A stretch of 48,976 nucleotides of DNA, from contig JAKEFG010000008.1 of assembly GCA_022616195.1 (NCBI GenBank), forward strand, positions 1 through 48,976, in the 5' to 3' direction. Source of the stretch: Candidatus Wolfebacteria bacterium. GTDB taxonomy: Bacteria; Patescibacteriota; Minisyncoccia; Phycocordibacterales; EsbW-18. Positions 4,604 through 44,881 of this stretch are shown one piece after another; positions within the stretch are counted from its first letter, which is position 1, and each line of letters starts with the position of its first letter. The position numbers were made by a program, and so were the translations under genes. The notes beneath the pieces are model-generated. The model was not told where the DNA came from. It was given only the letters and a program-made list of their open reading frames with translations, and ran no database searches.

Positions 4604-5281
4604 ATGACAAAGCTTTACGTTGTTGCGACACCTATTGGGAATCTTGAAGACATTACGCTTCGGGCGCTACGCACACTCAAGGAAGCGGATGTGATTCTTG
4701 CCGAAGATACGCGGGTGACGAGGAAACTGCTTGCACATTACGACATCCACACACCAGTTGAGCGGTTTGACGCAAAAGTTGAGAACCAGAAAGTCCGTAA
4801 GGTCTCACAATTGTTAGAGGAAGGAAAATCCATCGCGTTGGTATCAGATGCGGGGACGCCGACTATTTCTGATCCGGGCTCTAAGCTTGTCGCGGCGGTG
4901 CACACTGCTGGGTATGAGGTTGTCGCGACTCCCGGACCGAGCGCCTTGACGGCGGCGCTCTCCATAAGCGGTCTACCATCGTCAGAATTTCTATTTCTCG
5001 GCTTTCTCCCACACAAGAAGGGACGTAAGAAACTTTTTCAAGAAATAGTAGAATCGGAGCGGACGGTTGTATTCTATGAGTCGCCGCATCGCATTATGAA
5101 AACACTTTTGCTACTGGACAATTCGCGCGAATTGTCCAGTAAGTATGTGGTTGTGGCCCGGGAGCTGACGAAGATGTATGAGGAAGTGATATCCGGAACA
5201 GCACAGGAGGTATTGGCACATTTTCAAAATAACCCAGAGAAAGTGAAAGGGGAATTTGTGATTATGGTTGCAAAAAAATGA
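4604..5281 (+). CDS. rsmI: 16S rRNA (cytidine(1402)-2'-O)-methyltransferase
   Basis: MTKLYVVATPIGNLEDITLRAL, AEDTRVTRKLL, SDAGTPTISDPG, ATPGPSALTAALS. Confidence 0.95.
   Translation: MTKLYVVATPIGNLEDITLRALRTLKEADVILAEDTRVTRKLLAHYDIHTPVERFDAKVENQKVRKVSQLLEEGKSIALVSDAGTPTISDPGSKLVAAVHTAGYEVVATPGPSALTAALSISGLPSSEFLFLGFLPHKKGRKKLFQEIVESERTVVFYESPHRIMKTLLLLDNSRELSSKYVVVARELTKMYEEVISGTAQEVLAHFQNNPEKVKGEFVIMVAKK
5112..5141. repeat. 30-bp perfect palindrome inside rsmI
   Basis: TACTGGACAATTCGC|GCGAATTGTCCAGTA. Confidence 0.95.
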
Positions 5282-32164: not shown

Positions 32165-32198
32165 AACGGCACGAAGCGACTCGTCGCTTCGTGCCGTT
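32165..32198. terminator. 15-bp perfect-stem hairpin between convergent rplK and thyA
   Basis: AACGGCACGAAGCGA-CTCG-TCGCTTCGTGCCGTT. Confidence 0.65.
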
Positions 32199-38006: not shown

Positions 38007-38012
38007 TACAAT
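38007..38012 (+). promoter_or_regulatory. Extended -10 TGG-TACAAT, 7 nt from ileS ATG 38020
   Basis: CTCTGGTACAATGGAGCGCATGGATG. Confidence 0.6.
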
Positions 38013-38019
38013 GGAGCGC

Positions 38020-41000
38020 ATGGATGCGGAATCACACAAGAGCGAGGCGACAGAGCGCACCGTCGCCGCAAAGAAACCCGCCTTCGCTAAAGCTGTGGCG
38101 GGCAAGTCCGCTCTGGCGGAGAGAGAAGAGCGTATTCTTGCGTTTTGGCAAGAAAACAACATTTTTGAGAAATCGCTGGCGAAGCCCTCGCCAAAGGGTG
38201 AGTTTGTCTTCTATGAAGGGCCGCCGACGGCGAACGGTCGCCCCGGCATTCATCATGTGGAAGCGCGCGCATTCAAGGACATCATTCCGCGGTATAAGAC
38301 GATGTGCGGGTACCATGTGCGCCGGAAAGGCGGCTGGGACACGCACGGACTCCCCGTGGAGCTTGAAGTAGAAAAAGAACTCGGGTTCAAGACCAAGAAA
38401 GATATTGAAACCTACGGTATTGCCGCATTCAACCAAAAGTGCCGCGAGAGTGTCTGGAAATACAAAGAGGAATGGGAGCGATTTACCACACGCATCGGCT
38501 ACTGGCTTGACCTTGAGCACTCTTACATTACCTACGAGACGAACTATATTGAGTCGCTTTGGTACATTATCAAGCGGGTTGCCAAGAAGAATCTGCTCTA
38601 CAAGGATTACAAAGTGGTGCCGTGGTGCCCCCGTTGTGGCACCGCGCTCTCCAGCCACGAGCTCGCGCAGGGATACGCGGATGTTGAAGACACTTCAGTC
38701 TATGTAAAGTTTCGGGTAAAAAACCCGGAGAGAGTCGGCCTATCGGGAGATGTGTACCTCCTCGCGTGGACAACAACCCCGTGGACCTTGCTGGGAAACG
38801 TTGCATTGGCTGTCGGAAAAAATGTTGAGTATGTAAAACTTCAGATACTTGATCCTGAAAAGTCAAAAAAAGGAGAAAGAAAAATTATAAACCTAATTTT
38901 ATCTAATGATATTTATTTAAAATTATACGATGCGGATATTAAGAATCCTCTCAAGATAGCTCTGGGGCTGGCACATACTCACAGCGAGGAGTTACATGAT
39001 ATACAAAAAACACTCGGATACTTAAAAGGAGAAGAATTAATTGGCCTTGAATACGAACCGTTGTTTCCGTATCTTGCTGACTCACTTCCCGAAAGCGAAA
39101 AGATAAAACTTGATAATGCGTTCAAGGTCTACGCGGCGGATTTTGTGTCCACCGAAGAAGGAGCCGGCATCGTGCATACCGCAGTAATGTACGGACAGGA
39201 TGACTTTGAGTTGGGAACGAAAATAGGACTCCCAAAGCATCACTTAGTAGACGAAGAGGGCAAATTTACCAAAGACACGGGGGAGTTTTCCGGCATGTTC
39301 GTAAAAGACGCGGATACTGCCATTATCGCCGCGTTGACGAGGCAAAATCTCTTTACAGAGGAGAAGATAACTCACACCTACCCGTTCTGCTGGCGCTGCA
39401 AGACGCCGTTAATCTACTACGCGCGCGACTCGTGGTATATTGCGATGTCAAAGTTGCGTGACAAACTCATCAAGGAGAACCAGAAGATACACTGGGAGCC
39501 GACGCACATCAGGGACGGACGATTTGGTGAGTGGCTTCGCGAGGTAAAGGACTGGGCGATAAGCCGCAATCGCTACTGGGGTACGCCGCTCCCGGTCTGG
39601 AAATGCACTGACTGCGGTGGGACAAAAGTCATCGGCTCTATTGCAGAGCTGCGGAAACACACCAAAACATCCGGCAACACCTATTTTGTCATGCGGCACG
39701 GACAGTCGGAGGGAAACACAAAAGGCACGGTGAACTATTTACCAGAGGTGTCAGACGGGCTCACGGATGTTGGCAGGGCGGAGGTAGCGCGAACGCTCAA
39801 ACATCTGCGCCCCGGTACGATTGATGTCATCATCACATCACCTCTTCAGCGAACACGAGAAACCGCAGAGATGGTTCGGGAATACCTCGGGCTTGGCGCA
39901 GACGGTGTTCTTGTTGACGAACGGCTCGGAGAGGTGCGTGTCGGGGAGTTTCAGGGGCTGACGTGGGGTGAGTATCATGATACGTATACTCTGGAAGAAC
40001 AATTCGTAACGGCTCCCGAAGGCGGAGAGACACGAACTGAAGTCAAACATCGTGCCGGGGAATTGCTCCACGAGATTGAAGAGCGTTACCAGGGAAAGAG
40101 CATACTTCTCATTTCTCACGAGGGTGTTATAGAGCTTTTCTACGCTGTTATTGAAGGGGCCGACGCGAAACGCTCGGCGGAGATTATTAGTGGACGGAGT
40201 ATACCCAACGCTCACTTGGAAAAACTTTCCTTCGTGCCCCTGCCGCACAATGCCAACTACGAGGTTGACCTGCACCGCCCGTATATTGACGACATTGCGC
40301 TTGTCTGCGAGTGCGACAGTGTTATGGAACGGGTGCCGGAAGTAATGGACGTGTGGTTTGACTCGGGCGCCGTGCCTTTTGCGCAGGACCACTATCCGTT
40401 TGAAAACAAACGATGGGTGGACTCCAAGGGATACCCGGCGGACTATATTTCTGAAGGACTTGATATGACACGCGGTTGGTTTTATACCTTGCATGCTGTC
40501 GGCATCTTGGCGAAAGGTAAACGAGCGTTTCAAAATGTCATCGCTGTTGGGCTTCTTAATGATGCGAGTGGAAAGAAGATGTCGAAGTCAGTCGGGAACG
40601 TGGTTGACCCGTGGAAAATGCTTGAGAAATACGGCGCGGACGTGCTCCGCTATTGGATGTATACCATCAACCAGCCCGGAGAGTCCAAAAATTTTGATGA
40701 ACGAACAGTTGATGAGGTAGCAAAACGAGTGTTTGGCATTTTGGAGAATGTTACCAAATTTTATGAGCTGTATGCGGACACTGACATTATGCCGGGTATA
40801 GAGAGTAACAATGTACTAGACCGGTGGATTCTCGCACGTCTCGGTATGCTCATTGGTAATATCACGGGAAACCTTGATGCACTCAAGGTGCTTGAGCCGG
40901 CGCGGGCTATTCGTGATTTTGTGACTGACCTCTCAACATGGTACATTCGTCGCTCGCGCGACCGTTTCAAGGGTGACGACGAGAAAGACAAACAGGCGGC

Positions 41001-41691
41001 GCTTGCGACGACCCGCTTTGTGCTTCTGGAGCTTGCCAAAGTGATGGCGCCGTTCACGCCCTTTATCGCTGAAGACATCTACCAGCGCGTAAAGGCGCAA
41101 CACGACACTAATCCGCGAATGGATGCGAATGACACGAATGAGAAATGGAAGGAAAGCGTTCACCTAGAGGCATGGCCGCGTGCAGGGAAGCCGGATGTAA
41201 AGGTCCTTGCCGATATGACAGAGGTGCGCCGTGTGGTGTCCCTCGCGCTTGAATCGCGTATGACCGCGGGCATTAAGGTACGACAACCGCTCGCTACGCT
41301 TAAAATCCGAAATCCGAAATCCGAAATCCGAAATAATGAGGGACTTTTACAACTTATTCGAGATGAGGTGAACGTCAAAAAAGTGGTGTTTGAGGACGCG
41401 ACCGGCTGGGAGGTTGAATTGGATACGACGCTCACATCGGAGCTTAAAGCGGAGGGGCAGGCCCGCGAGCTTATTCGCGCCGTTCAGAATCTACGCAAGG
41501 AGGCTGGCCTCTCACCGAGCGATGCCGTAGTGCTTGAAGTTGACGCTGATGTCGCCGGACGCGCACTTATTGAAAAATTTAAGAATGAGATACAGAGAAC
41601 GGCGCTTCTTCGTGATATTCGGTTTGTAAAAGTTATAGGGACGGAGACAACGATTGACAATGTATCGTTCACTCTGGCTCTCAAAAAATAG
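38020..41691 (+). CDS. ileS: Isoleucine--tRNA ligase (IleS2-like) with inserted histidine phosphatase domain
   Basis: GPPTANGRPGIHHVEARAFKDIIPRYKTM, GGWDTHGLPVELEVEKELG, DVWFDSGAVPFAQ, GKKMSKSVGN; insert FVMRHGQSEGNTKG...ITSPLQRTRETAE...LLISHEGVIE. Confidence 0.96.
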   Translation: MDAESHKSEATERTVAAKKPAFAKAVAGKSALAEREERILAFWQENNIFEKSLAKPSPKGEFVFYEGPPTANGRPGIHHVEARAFKDIIPRYKTMCGYHVRRKGGWDTHGLPVELEVEKELGFKTKKDIETYGIAAFNQKCRESVWKYKEEWERFTTRIGYWLDLEHSYITYETNYIESLWYIIKRVAKKNLLYKDYKVVPWCPRCGTALSSHELAQGYADVEDTSVYVKFRVKNPERVGLSGDVYLLAWTTTPWTLLGNVALAVGKNVEYVKLQILDPEKSKKGERKIINLILSNDIYLKLYDADIKNPLKIALGLAHTHSEELHDIQKTLGYLKGEELIGLEYEPLFPYLADSLPESEKIKLDNAFKVYAADFVSTEEGAGIVHTAVMYGQDDFELGTKIGLPKHHLVDEEGKFTKDTGEFSGMFVKDADTAIIAALTRQNLFTEEKITHTYPFCWRCKTPLIYYARDSWYIAMSKLRDKLIKENQKIHWEPTHIRDGRFGEWLREVKDWAISRNRYWGTPLPVWKCTDCGGTKVIGSIAELRKHTKTSGNTYFVMRHGQSEGNTKGTVNYLPEVSDGLTDVGRAEVARTLKHLRPGTIDVIITSPLQRTRETAEMVREYLGLGADGVLVDERLGEVRVGEFQGLTWGEYHDTYTLEEQFVTAPEGGETRTEVKHRAGELLHEIEERYQGKSILLISHEGVIELFYAVIEGADAKRSAEIISGRSIPNAHLEKLSFVPLPHNANYEVDLHRPYIDDIALVCECDSVMERVPEVMDVWFDSGAVPFAQDHYPFENKRWVDSKGYPADYISEGLDMTRGWFYTLHAVGILAKGKRAFQNVIAVGLLNDASGKKMSKSVGNVVDPWKMLEKYGADVLRYWMYTINQPGESKNFDERTVDEVAKRVFGILENVTKFYELYADTDIMPGIESNNVLDRWILARLGMLIGNITGNLDALKVLEPARAIRDFVTDLSTWYIRRSRDRFKGDDEKDKQAALATTRFVLLELAKVMAPFTPFIAEDIYQRVKAQHDTNPRMDANDTNEKWKESVHLEAWPRAGKPDVKVLADMTEVRRVVSLALESRMTAGIKVRQPLATLKIRNPKSEIRNNEGLLQLIRDEVNVKKVVFEDATGWEVELDTTLTSELKAEGQARELIRAVQNLRKEAGLSPSDAVVLEVDADVAGRALIEKFKNEIQRTALLRDIRFVKVIGTETTIDNVSFTLALKK
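41303..41330 (+). repeat. 4 x AAATCCG tandem heptamer within ileS
   Basis: AAATCCGAAATCCGAAATCCGAAATCCG. Confidence 0.95.
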
Positions 41692-42301: not shown

Positions 42302-42892
42302 ATGTACACCAAGTATCATACGGAAGGGTTGGTGTTGAAAAGTTTTAATCTGGGCGAAGCAGACCGAGCGTACCATATCTTTACACGTGATTTAGGGCTT
42401 GTGTATGCCAAGGCGCAGAGCGTCCGTGAGCTCAAGTCAAAACTGCGCCCTAATCTGCAGGAACTGTCGCACGGTGCGTTCTCGCTCGTCCGTGCCAGGG
42501 ATGTGTGGCGCGTGACGCATGCCGACGCGGAGGCACATTTCTTTTCAGAATTGAGCGGTGACAGCGTGCGAATGGATATGGTGCGGAGGGTATTAAAACT
42601 CTTGCGCCGATTGCTACCGCAGGAGGAGCCGTACGCAGTGCTTTACCAAAGTGTTGTGCACGGACTTCTGTTCTTAGTCCGATATCCGCTTCGTGGCGCG
42701 GAACTGGAAAATTTTGAAGTGCTCTTGGTTCTCCGGATATTAAACCAACTTGGCTATCTTGGCGGGTCCGGGGCGTTCGGCTATGTACTCGCCGCGCCGC
42801 ACATCAACGATATGCATGTGGCGGAAGTGGGACGTGTGCGTCACCGCGCGGTCTACGAAATCAACCGCGCGCTCCGGTCTGTTGATTTGTAA
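42302..42892 (+). CDS. recO: DNA repair protein RecO (short)
   Basis: TEGLVLKSFNLGEADRAYHIFTRDLGLVYAKAQSVRELKSKLRPNLQELSHGAFSLVRARDVWRVT. Confidence 0.8.
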   Translation: MYTKYHTEGLVLKSFNLGEADRAYHIFTRDLGLVYAKAQSVRELKSKLRPNLQELSHGAFSLVRARDVWRVTHADAEAHFFSELSGDSVRMDMVRRVLKLLRRLLPQEEPYAVLYQSVVHGLLFLVRYPLRGAELENFEVLLVLRILNQLGYLGGSGAFGYVLAAPHINDMHVAEVGRVRHRAVYEINRALRSVDL

Positions 42893-42895
42893 CTG

Positions 42896-42941
42896 GTATA
42901 CCCCGCACCACTTTTGTGTACAAAAGTGGTGCGGGGTATAC
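42896..42941. terminator. 46-nt perfect hairpin (22-nt arms, 2-nt centre) between recO and next gene; 3' arm contains a -10 box
   Basis: GTATACCCCGCACCACTTTTGT-GT-ACAAAAGTGGTGCGGGGTATAC. Confidence 0.8.
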
Positions 42942-42942
42942 T
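42937..42942 (+). promoter_or_regulatory. -10 TATACT, 7 nt from ATG 42950
   Basis: GCGGGGTATACTACAGAGAATGACG. Confidence 0.55.
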
Positions 42943-42949
42943 ACAGAGA

Positions 42950-44881
42950 ATGACGAGAAAACAATCCGATGACGATAGCCCGCTTGAAGAGCTTGAGGGA
43001 CAGCTCTATGCTCGCCGCGAGATGCCGGCTTCGCGCCGCCCGCGCCTCCATCCGGACGATGCGCGAGAGGTCGCGTCGGATTGGCAACATGAGCATCCGC
43101 ATGTCACCCCGGGACTAGACAGTATGGTACGGAGAAAGAAGGGAAAATTTGTAAAACCGTTTCTTCTCTTTGCGGTTATCTTTTTTGTCATCGCCGTGGG
43201 CATTGCGGCGGTGGTAATTACCCGCGGCGGCAACACAGTATCGTCGCGCAACGTGGAGGTGTCGGTGACCGGTCCGGTGCAGGTGGACGCCGGCGACATT
43301 CTGTCGTTTACTGTTTCAGTAAGCAACGAGAACACAACGGCGCTTGAAACGACAGACCTCATTGTGGAGTTTGCGCCCGGTACGCGTGATCCCGACGATA
43401 CTGCCCGGGAACTGCCTCGCCTCCGCGAGTCGCTCGGGAGATTGAACCCCGGTGCCGTGGCCAAGAAAGAGATGCACGCCACAGCGTTTGGCAAATCGGG
43501 TGACAAACAGGAAATTATCGTAAGTGTTGAGTATCGCATTGTCGGGTCAAACGCGGTGTTCGTGAAAGAAAAGGCATTTACGTATGAAATCGGACACACT
43601 CCGGTAACGCTTCTCGTGGATGCTCCGTCGGAGATAAATGCCGGTCAGGAGTTTGAGATGGAAGTGTCGGTGGTTTCCAACTCCACGGAGACGCTCAAAA
43701 ATCTCTTGCTTGTTGCCGAATACCCGTTTGGTTTTGTGTTTGGGGACGCAGCGCCACGTCCAAGTCAAGGGAGTCGTGTATGGGATCTCGGTGACTTGGC
43801 ACCCGGAGCGAAGAAAGTGGTCCGGCTCCGTGCTACCGTTGAAGGGCAGGATGAGGAGGAACGGACTGTGCGATTTACCGTCGGGGTCGCCGACGCAAAC
43901 AAGATTGACGTCGTCACGCCATTTCTGACCGAGACGCACACTCTCGCTTTGCGGCGTCCGTTCGTGGAAGTGAATATAACGCTCAACGGGAGTGTTGCGG
44001 ATGAAGTTGCCGTGCTGAGCGGCGAGCCGGTGCGAGTGGATCTTTCGTGGCGCAATAATTTGCCGGACTCGGTTGTCGATGTGGTTGTTGTGGCGCGATT
44101 GTCGGGAACGGTATTGAATAAATCATCGGTTACCGTTGATGACGGATTCTACCGTTCAAACACGAACACGGTGACGTGGGATAGGCAAAGTGATTCGTCA
44201 CTTGGCGAGCTTCCGCCGGGGGCAACAGGACAGCTGTCGTTTACGTTTGAGCCGCTTGATCTCTCGGATCGTGCGGATATCACGAGTCCTGAAATTGATA
44301 TTGTATTCTCACTCACAGCACGGCGCTTAGGTGACGCAAGTGCACCAAGTACTATTGCAACGGACCTGGGTGAGAAAATCATTCGTGTCAACTCCGATAT
44401 CGCGCTCGCGCAGCGAGCGGTGCACTTTGTTGGGCCGTTTACGAACAGTGGTCCGATGCCGCCAGAGGCGGAAGAAGACACGACGTATACCATCATCTGG
44501 TCAATCTCCAATACGTCGAACAACGTTGACGACGTACAAGTATCGGCAACGCTCCCGTCATACGTCGAGTGGATGGGAGCAACAGATCCATCCGGCGAGA
44601 AAATCTCCTTCAGCCCCGTGGGCGGGCAGGTCATATGGGATGTTGGAGAAGTGGCGCGCGGTATCGGTATTGGCAACTCGCCGCGCGAGGTTGCGTTCCG
44701 GGTATCGCTTACCCCGAGCATCTCACAGGTCGGTGCCGCTCCAACGCTTGTGAGCGAGGTGCGACTCTCGGGCACGGACGAATTTACCGGTGCGCCTGTC
44801 GGCGCCAGCAGCGGGGCCGTTACCACGCGACTTACGACCGATCCGGAGTTTGAAGAAGATCAGGGACGGGTGGTGGAGTAA
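42950..44881 (+). CDS. Membrane-anchored surface protein with DUF11/Ig-like repeats
   Basis: Single TM (FLLFAVIFFVIAVGIAAVVI) then repeated beta-rich segments such as YTIIWSISNTSNNVDDVQVSATLPSYVEWMG. Confidence 0.8.
   Translation: MTRKQSDDDSPLEELEGQLYARREMPASRRPRLHPDDAREVASDWQHEHPHVTPGLDSMVRRKKGKFVKPFLLFAVIFFVIAVGIAAVVITRGGNTVSSRNVEVSVTGPVQVDAGDILSFTVSVSNENTTALETTDLIVEFAPGTRDPDDTARELPRLRESLGRLNPGAVAKKEMHATAFGKSGDKQEIIVSVEYRIVGSNAVFVKEKAFTYEIGHTPVTLLVDAPSEINAGQEFEMEVSVVSNSTETLKNLLLVAEYPFGFVFGDAAPRPSQGSRVWDLGDLAPGAKKVVRLRATVEGQDEEERTVRFTVGVADANKIDVVTPFLTETHTLALRRPFVEVNITLNGSVADEVAVLSGEPVRVDLSWRNNLPDSVVDVVVVARLSGTVLNKSSVTVDDGFYRSNTNTVTWDRQSDSSLGELPPGATGQLSFTFEPLDLSDRADITSPEIDIVFSLTARRLGDASAPSTIATDLGEKIIRVNSDIALAQRAVHFVGPFTNSGPMPPEAEEDTTYTIIWSISNTSNNVDDVQVSATLPSYVEWMGATDPSGEKISFSPVGGQVIWDVGEVARGIGIGNSPREVAFRVSLTPSISQVGAAPTLVSEVRLSGTDEFTGAPVGASSGAVTTRLTTDPEFEEDQGRVVE

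Follow-up and report, generated by a model that had tools for sequence, protein, structure and literature searches.

Between recO and the gene for a DUF11-domain protein in a Candidatus Wolfebacteria bacterium (Patescibacteria; GenBank assembly GCA_022616195.1) lies a perfect hairpin which, in our interpretation, is very probably a solo copy of a mobile palindrome that inserted into an older promoter and is kin to longer units carrying a small GIY-YIG nuclease gene. The stretch analysed, hereafter the window, comprises 48,976 nt (positions 1 to 48,976 of contig JAKEFG010000008.1, forward strand). An element of the form YCCR-GCACC...loop...GGTGC-YGGR would have inserted at a TATA in the -10 region between recO and the DUF11 gene, duplicating 4 bp, and the right-hand TATA would have rebuilt the -10 box; for this placement, with the box restored by the duplicate, the sequence evidence is strong. 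The features concerned are as follows.

42302 to 42892, + strand: recO (PF11967 RecO_N, E 8e-12), with stop codon TAA at 42890-42892
42896 to 42941, unstranded: inverted repeat in the extent given by the original prediction, that is, the element, the duplicated TATA and one base per side (GTATAC...GTATAC)
42897 to 42900, unstranded: left TATA of the 4-bp target duplication, placed by the direct-repeat test and sequence reading
42901 to 42936, unstranded: putative mobile palindromic element, solo copy of 36 bp, CCCCGCACCACTTTTGTGTACAAAAGTGGTGCGGGG; boundary from the 81-copy direct-repeat test
42937 to 42940, unstranded: right TATA of the 4-bp target duplication and first four bases of the -10 box, placed by the direct-repeat test and sequence reading
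42937 to 42942, + strand: probable -10 box TATACT of the DUF11 gene, from -10-like boxes in orthologs
42950 to 44881, + strand: DUF11-domain protein of 643 aa (PF01345), whose adjacency to recO is conserved in the order

The hairpin begins 3 nt after the recO stop codon, and recomputation of arms, spacer and coordinates gave exactly what had been claimed: arms of 22 nt each (42896-42917 and 42920-42941) that are 100% complementary, separated by a 2-nt spacer. They form the longest perfect inverted pair in the window, and within the 36-bp element 34 of the 36 positions are self-complementary, the exception being the 2-nt centre. The predicted RNA fold has a free energy of -43.5 kcal/mol (z = -8.8), a value equalled by 0 of 200 shuffles. 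An Rfam scan of the window returned only a tRNA and no other element.

When the 631-kb genome was searched with one hairpin arm, allowing up to 3 mismatches, the same arms were found elsewhere as inverted pairs. Counting the window copy, the genome has seven compact palindromes, of the form GCACCnnTTTT-loop-AAAAnnGGTGC, and one split copy; two other genomes of the family contain none of this form. Copies vary at two positions and in the outer CCCC/CCCA, and the partner arm co-varies in every compact copy. The core of the palindrome occurs in 12/384 genomes of the class, where a reversed control pattern matches one. In the genome collection it was matched in 106 stretches; among the 80 matches listed, most are named as Patescibacteria lineages and a few as Bacteroidetes or others. 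Tight arrays of palindromes, some with near-identical loops, were also seen at L095 7295-7434 and at L113 904-1129, the latter in a pilin leader region.

The limits of the element were taken from 81 copies of the collection, in which left and right flanks were compared as direct repeats at each offset outside GCACC. Exact 4-bp direct repeats are found in 31 of the 81 copies at a single boundary, 4 nt outside GCACC (200 shuffles: mean 6.5, maximum 14), while at all other offsets identical flank 4-mers occur in 0 to 3 copies. This boundary delimits the element as given above, and inside it the flanks are complementary rather than repeated. Target duplications have the form TNNA, mostly preceded by G and followed by C, and the window copy has TATA on either side. 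The TTTA duplications come partly from one recurrent target, the codons of pilin genes, and those copies are thus not independent; TTGA, TCAA, CTTG, GGAA and TATA cases lie elsewhere. Insertion is confirmed by empty sites in a congener. At one of them, G275 reads GAATTGA-[TCCAGCACCACTTTTAATTCCCTTAAAAGTGGTGCTGGA]-TTGACACG and G326, of the same genus, reads GGAATTGACACG; the placement of the gap is our own reading, the aligner having set it differently because the repeated bases are interchangeable. In a pilin of the same genus, the uninterrupted MKQKGFTLIELLVV of G326 corresponds in G275 to MQQKQKGFT-QHHFSKK...KSGAG-FTLIELLVV, with one degraded palindromic insert and a second one beside it; G359 carries a different palindrome in the same codons, flanked by TTTA and TTTA.

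The same arms also enclose genes. The window copy itself is without a gene, but two of the six small GIY-YIG genes in its genome lie between the arms ACCCAGCACC...GGTGCTGGGT, of 19 and 17 nt; the GIY-YIG domain of the C7 gene was identified as PF01541 (E 2.3e-16). An arm-to-arm search at a spacing of 274-287 nt recovered this layout in two more genomes; among its six matches, L197, L200 and L201 do not start like a GIY-YIG open reading frame (ORF) and were set aside as chance. We then surveyed 107 small GIY-YIG genes of the class for the best inverted match between their flanks, with a threshold score of at least 13, and found inverted flanking arms at 30/107 genes, compared with 4/428 shuffled pairings and 0/180 random windows of the same loci. 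Five loci (L222, L270, L281, L311 and L218) pass this threshold but resemble other repeats and were excluded from the duplication statistics. About 25 units look genuine, most of them spanning 280-310 bp. Their arms fall into a GCACC family (the window type), GTTAGAG, CACAC, GCTCTTTT and others, with outer ends that are mostly YCC[CA]. Exact 4-bp duplications flank 8 of the 25 units (shuffled mean about 0.6 at the offset holding most), and the two solo GTTAGAG palindromes found have TGAA and TAAA duplications.

A tree of 105 GIY-YIG domains contains many weak forks because only 85 columns could be used. Within it, the arm-bracketed genes cluster, the label 'no arms' needing 4 changes where shuffled labels need 24 on average, and the arm family tracks the nuclease lineage across distant hosts, with GTTAGAG in one clade (100/92), GCTCTTTT in one clade (100/96) and GCACC in two. 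Further, the GTTAGAG arm is itself coding, supplying SLTG, the C-terminal residues of its nuclease. Both observations fit arms and nuclease moving as one unit. Copies of one nuclease lineage have differing flanks and share only the short G-TNNA-C targets. By sequence, the nearest solved structures to the nuclease are UPF0213 proteins and, weakly, SLX1. The four other small GIY-YIG genes of the genome (L171, L172, L174 and L175, at C8:6947, C18:3228, C7:22471 and C24:7014) abut tRNA-Ser, -Gln, -Phe and -Lys genes, and beyond the ORF part of the tRNA sequence is repeated; this is perhaps a second insertion habit of the nuclease family.

Anatomy, duplications and phylogeny support the view that the solo palindromes are relatives, of the kind known as miniature inverted-repeat transposable elements (MITEs), of an element of about 280-310 bp with the same arms around one small GIY-YIG gene. 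As to what moves them, a possible candidate, which we advance tentatively, is the nuclease itself: it would recognise its own arms, cut G-TNNA-C with a 4-nt stagger of its own making and mobilise both the full copies, which would be autonomous, and the solo copies, in trans. With similar reserve, we suggest that Patescibacteria may harbour a new type of DNA transposon of about 280-310 bp, with two inverted arms, a single small GIY-YIG nuclease as transposase and 4-bp duplications at G-TNNA-C; it would have diversified into several arm families, every one paired with a nuclease lineage of its own, and the bare palindromes that it sheds would settle in the leader codons of pilin genes, in RNase P RNA and in group I introns. 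It is rather unlikely, in our estimation, that an ordinary transposase moves the palindrome in trans, with the GIY-YIG gene carried along as a passenger or being a homing gene in its own right, lodged in palindromes. Classical transposases are typically associated with 4-bp duplications and terminal inverted repeats, and the genome does encode an IS200-like Y1 transposase; Y1 enzymes, however, are not expected to make duplications. This gene (IS200-like, Y1/RAYT; L036:8035-8796) is situated about 6.5 kb from the C17 palindrome copy, and no bracketing arms of the present family were found around it. Between closely spaced paired arms we found no gene other than GIY-YIG, the GIY-YIG gene fills the whole unit and the spans are uniform, all of which speaks against this alternative, and the same holds for the agreement of arm family with nuclease lineage and the arm-encoded end of the GTTAGAG nuclease. 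As a separate observation, the IS200-like gene apparently has a palindromic repeat of its own, ACTTGGGAATC...GATTCCCAAGT (read from nearby translations), which is unlike the window palindrome.

The conserved junction at which the window copy lies bears on the age of the promoter. The DUF11 gene is present in 56/60 genomes of the order, and upstream of it a recO match was found at 17/19 ortholog loci. A TATAAT- or TATACT-like -10 box (at least 5/6 matches, no more than 45 nt from the start) is found in 16/19 orthologs, whereas base-shuffled sequences average 7.1 and reach 13 at most; 13 of these 16 boxes sit 6-10 nt 5' of the ATG, and 13 of the 16 box-bearing orthologs have TG one base upstream of the box. 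Not one of the 19 orthologs has a perfect stem longer than 9 nt in the 200 nt upstream of the start. Once the element and one TATA are removed, the window junction becomes TAACTGGTATACTACAGAGAATG, with an extended -10 and a 7-nt gap in an ortholog-like layout, and the pre-insertion junction is accordingly predicted to have contained a single TATA (CTGGTATACTACAG). Since orthologs have the promoter without the hairpin, and since removal of the element leaves an ortholog-like layout, the promoter is older than the palindrome. The -10 box overlaps the hairpin end because the TATA target was duplicated. Through the insertion, the TG extension of the window promoter was replaced by GGGG, and promoter strength may therefore have changed.

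The original prediction had read this overlap as a terminator-like stem merged with a promoter and, further, as a possible switch, with transcripts that run on from recO folding the -10/start region and internal initiation yielding an unfolded, leaderless mRNA. Its promoter half is borne out: TATACT lies partly inside the hairpin end and 7 nt before the ATG at 42950, in line with the ortholog boxes, and the DUF11 mRNA is probably leaderless. The terminator half is not borne out: an intrinsic terminator (a G+C-rich stem followed by a T run) was rejected for want of a T tract, and a terminator scan found none. As for other inverted repeats ending in GTATACT, which it proposed to look for, among the copies of this genome only those of the window and of C4:56947-56992 have TATACT next. 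The hairpin/-10 geometry is real, the promoter is conserved and the RNA fold is strong, as a switch would have it; yet the orthologs keep the promoter with stems of at most 9 nt, which the original prediction had itself named as contrary evidence, the palindrome is dispersed at unrelated sites with target duplications, and no T tract is present. We consider a switch built into the promoter very improbable; under insertion of a mobile palindrome, any regulatory effect of the hairpin would be a by-product.

Copies of the palindrome occur in quite different settings. In pilin genes, one arm encodes KSGAG-FT (a strict pattern finds 14/82 copies, a looser one 17 leaders); type IV pilin leaders read in frame through the insert, and several have a GFT on each side of it. 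The window copy is intergenic instead. Other copies are found in RNase P RNA (L059 and L126, identical in sequence, L093, L108 and L128) and in group I introns (L052, L096, L112 and L137). Prepilin peptidase removes the pilin leader, which would make the leader a safe place for insertion. Insertions would be retained at sites where a hairpin or added peptide is nearly harmless, that is, in intergenic DNA, in promoter boxes rebuilt by the duplication, in loops of catalytic RNAs and in the prepilin leader. An origin solely from pilin genes was rejected: most solo copies lie away from pilins, and just 1/107 GIY-YIG genes lies at one. At L127 2819-5809 and L130 2349-3137, a GIY-YIG nuclease runs in frame into the following type IV pilin, with a palindrome at the junction. 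That the palindromes are immobile host sites under selection, such as terminators, protein-binding sites or DNA-uptake signals, is scarcely credible, for although they are palindromic, partly intergenic and alike across lineages, they have target duplications and an empty site, occur within the codons of pilin genes, in RNase P RNA and in group I introns, lack a T tract in the window and are too few per genome, with arms mostly paired, for an uptake signal in particular.

Several points nevertheless weigh against a mobile palindrome driven by the nuclease. No movement has been observed, the case being built on sequence comparison, and the empty site of the window was reconstructed from distant orthologs, no insertion-free close relative being among the genomes compared. 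Most copies in the window's own genome are flanked by TATA on both sides, so that TATA could be part of the element rather than its target, and the decision rests on the other genomes. Among the GIY-bearing units, 17/25 have no exact duplication; for one arm type, the B type, solo palindromes and GIY-bearing units do not always share a genome; and we know of no GIY-YIG nuclease that makes 4-nt staggers.

Among known systems, the relation of solo palindromes to GIY-bearing units would be that of a MITE to its parent element. Like MITEs, the palindromes are short and geneless, have inverted ends, occur several times per genome with target duplications, and have a gene-bearing relative with the same ends; they differ in that this relative encodes only a GIY-YIG nuclease and no known transposase, and in that the solo form is nearly all palindrome. 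The palindromic elements of Rickettsia are longer than the palindromes described here, and to our knowledge they have no link to a nuclease gene, the likeness being one of habit. They too are dispersed palindromes of a reduced genome that also occur inside protein genes (PMC2635572), as the in-frame insertions in pilin leaders do here. Repetitive extragenic palindromic (REP) sequences are dispersed palindromes of 20-40 bp with a GTAG or CGTC tag at one end, served by RAYT transposases (PMC3733652). The present palindromes are likewise short and dispersed but have symmetric ends and 4-bp duplications; the flanks of the window palindrome, CTGGTATA and TATACTAC, lack a GTAG/CGTC tag, and a RAYT/REP origin was rejected on this test.

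With GIY-YIG homing endonucleases the nuclease shares its domain family and a weak match to a group I intron endonuclease model, below the cut-off of that model; it differs in that, instead of one conserved homing site, it has many different targets, along with terminal inverted arms and 4-bp duplications. In Penelope-like retroelements, a GIY-YIG endonuclease serves integration with target duplications, of 8-10 bp in the cited cases (PMC3846280), but these elements are eukaryotic and based on reverse transcriptase, for which the unit described here is too small. In rRNA genes of the candidate phyla radiation (CPR), GIY-YIG inserts fitting no intron, plus many short geneless inserts, have been reported (PMC11270868), in a text that, in contrast to the present findings, makes no mention of inverted repeats or palindromes. 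A description of GIY-YIG genes inside palindromes was not found in the open-licence literature, and an earlier one elsewhere is possible.

Patescibacteria are streamlined, hard to culture and rich in unexplained inserts. If the proposal is true, a minimal element with a small nuclease as its sole gene would widen the range of DNA-moving enzymes, offer a testable source for the CPR rRNA inserts that fit neither introns nor homing, and account for the unusual length of some prepilin leaders and for some hairpins inserted in RNase P RNA. It would also supply a rule to tell such palindromes from regulatory hairpins, namely YCCR ends and a 4-bp TNNA duplication.

Two further observations concern other parts of the window. 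Three short perfect inverted repeats of different sequence lie at 1589-1620, 5112-5141 and 32165-32198 (arms 15-16 nt, spacer 0-2 nt). At 38011-41691, the catalytic region of an isoleucyl-type tRNA synthetase ORF of 1226 aa is interrupted at residues 559-725 by an entire histidine phosphatase domain (PF00300, E 4.5e-31).
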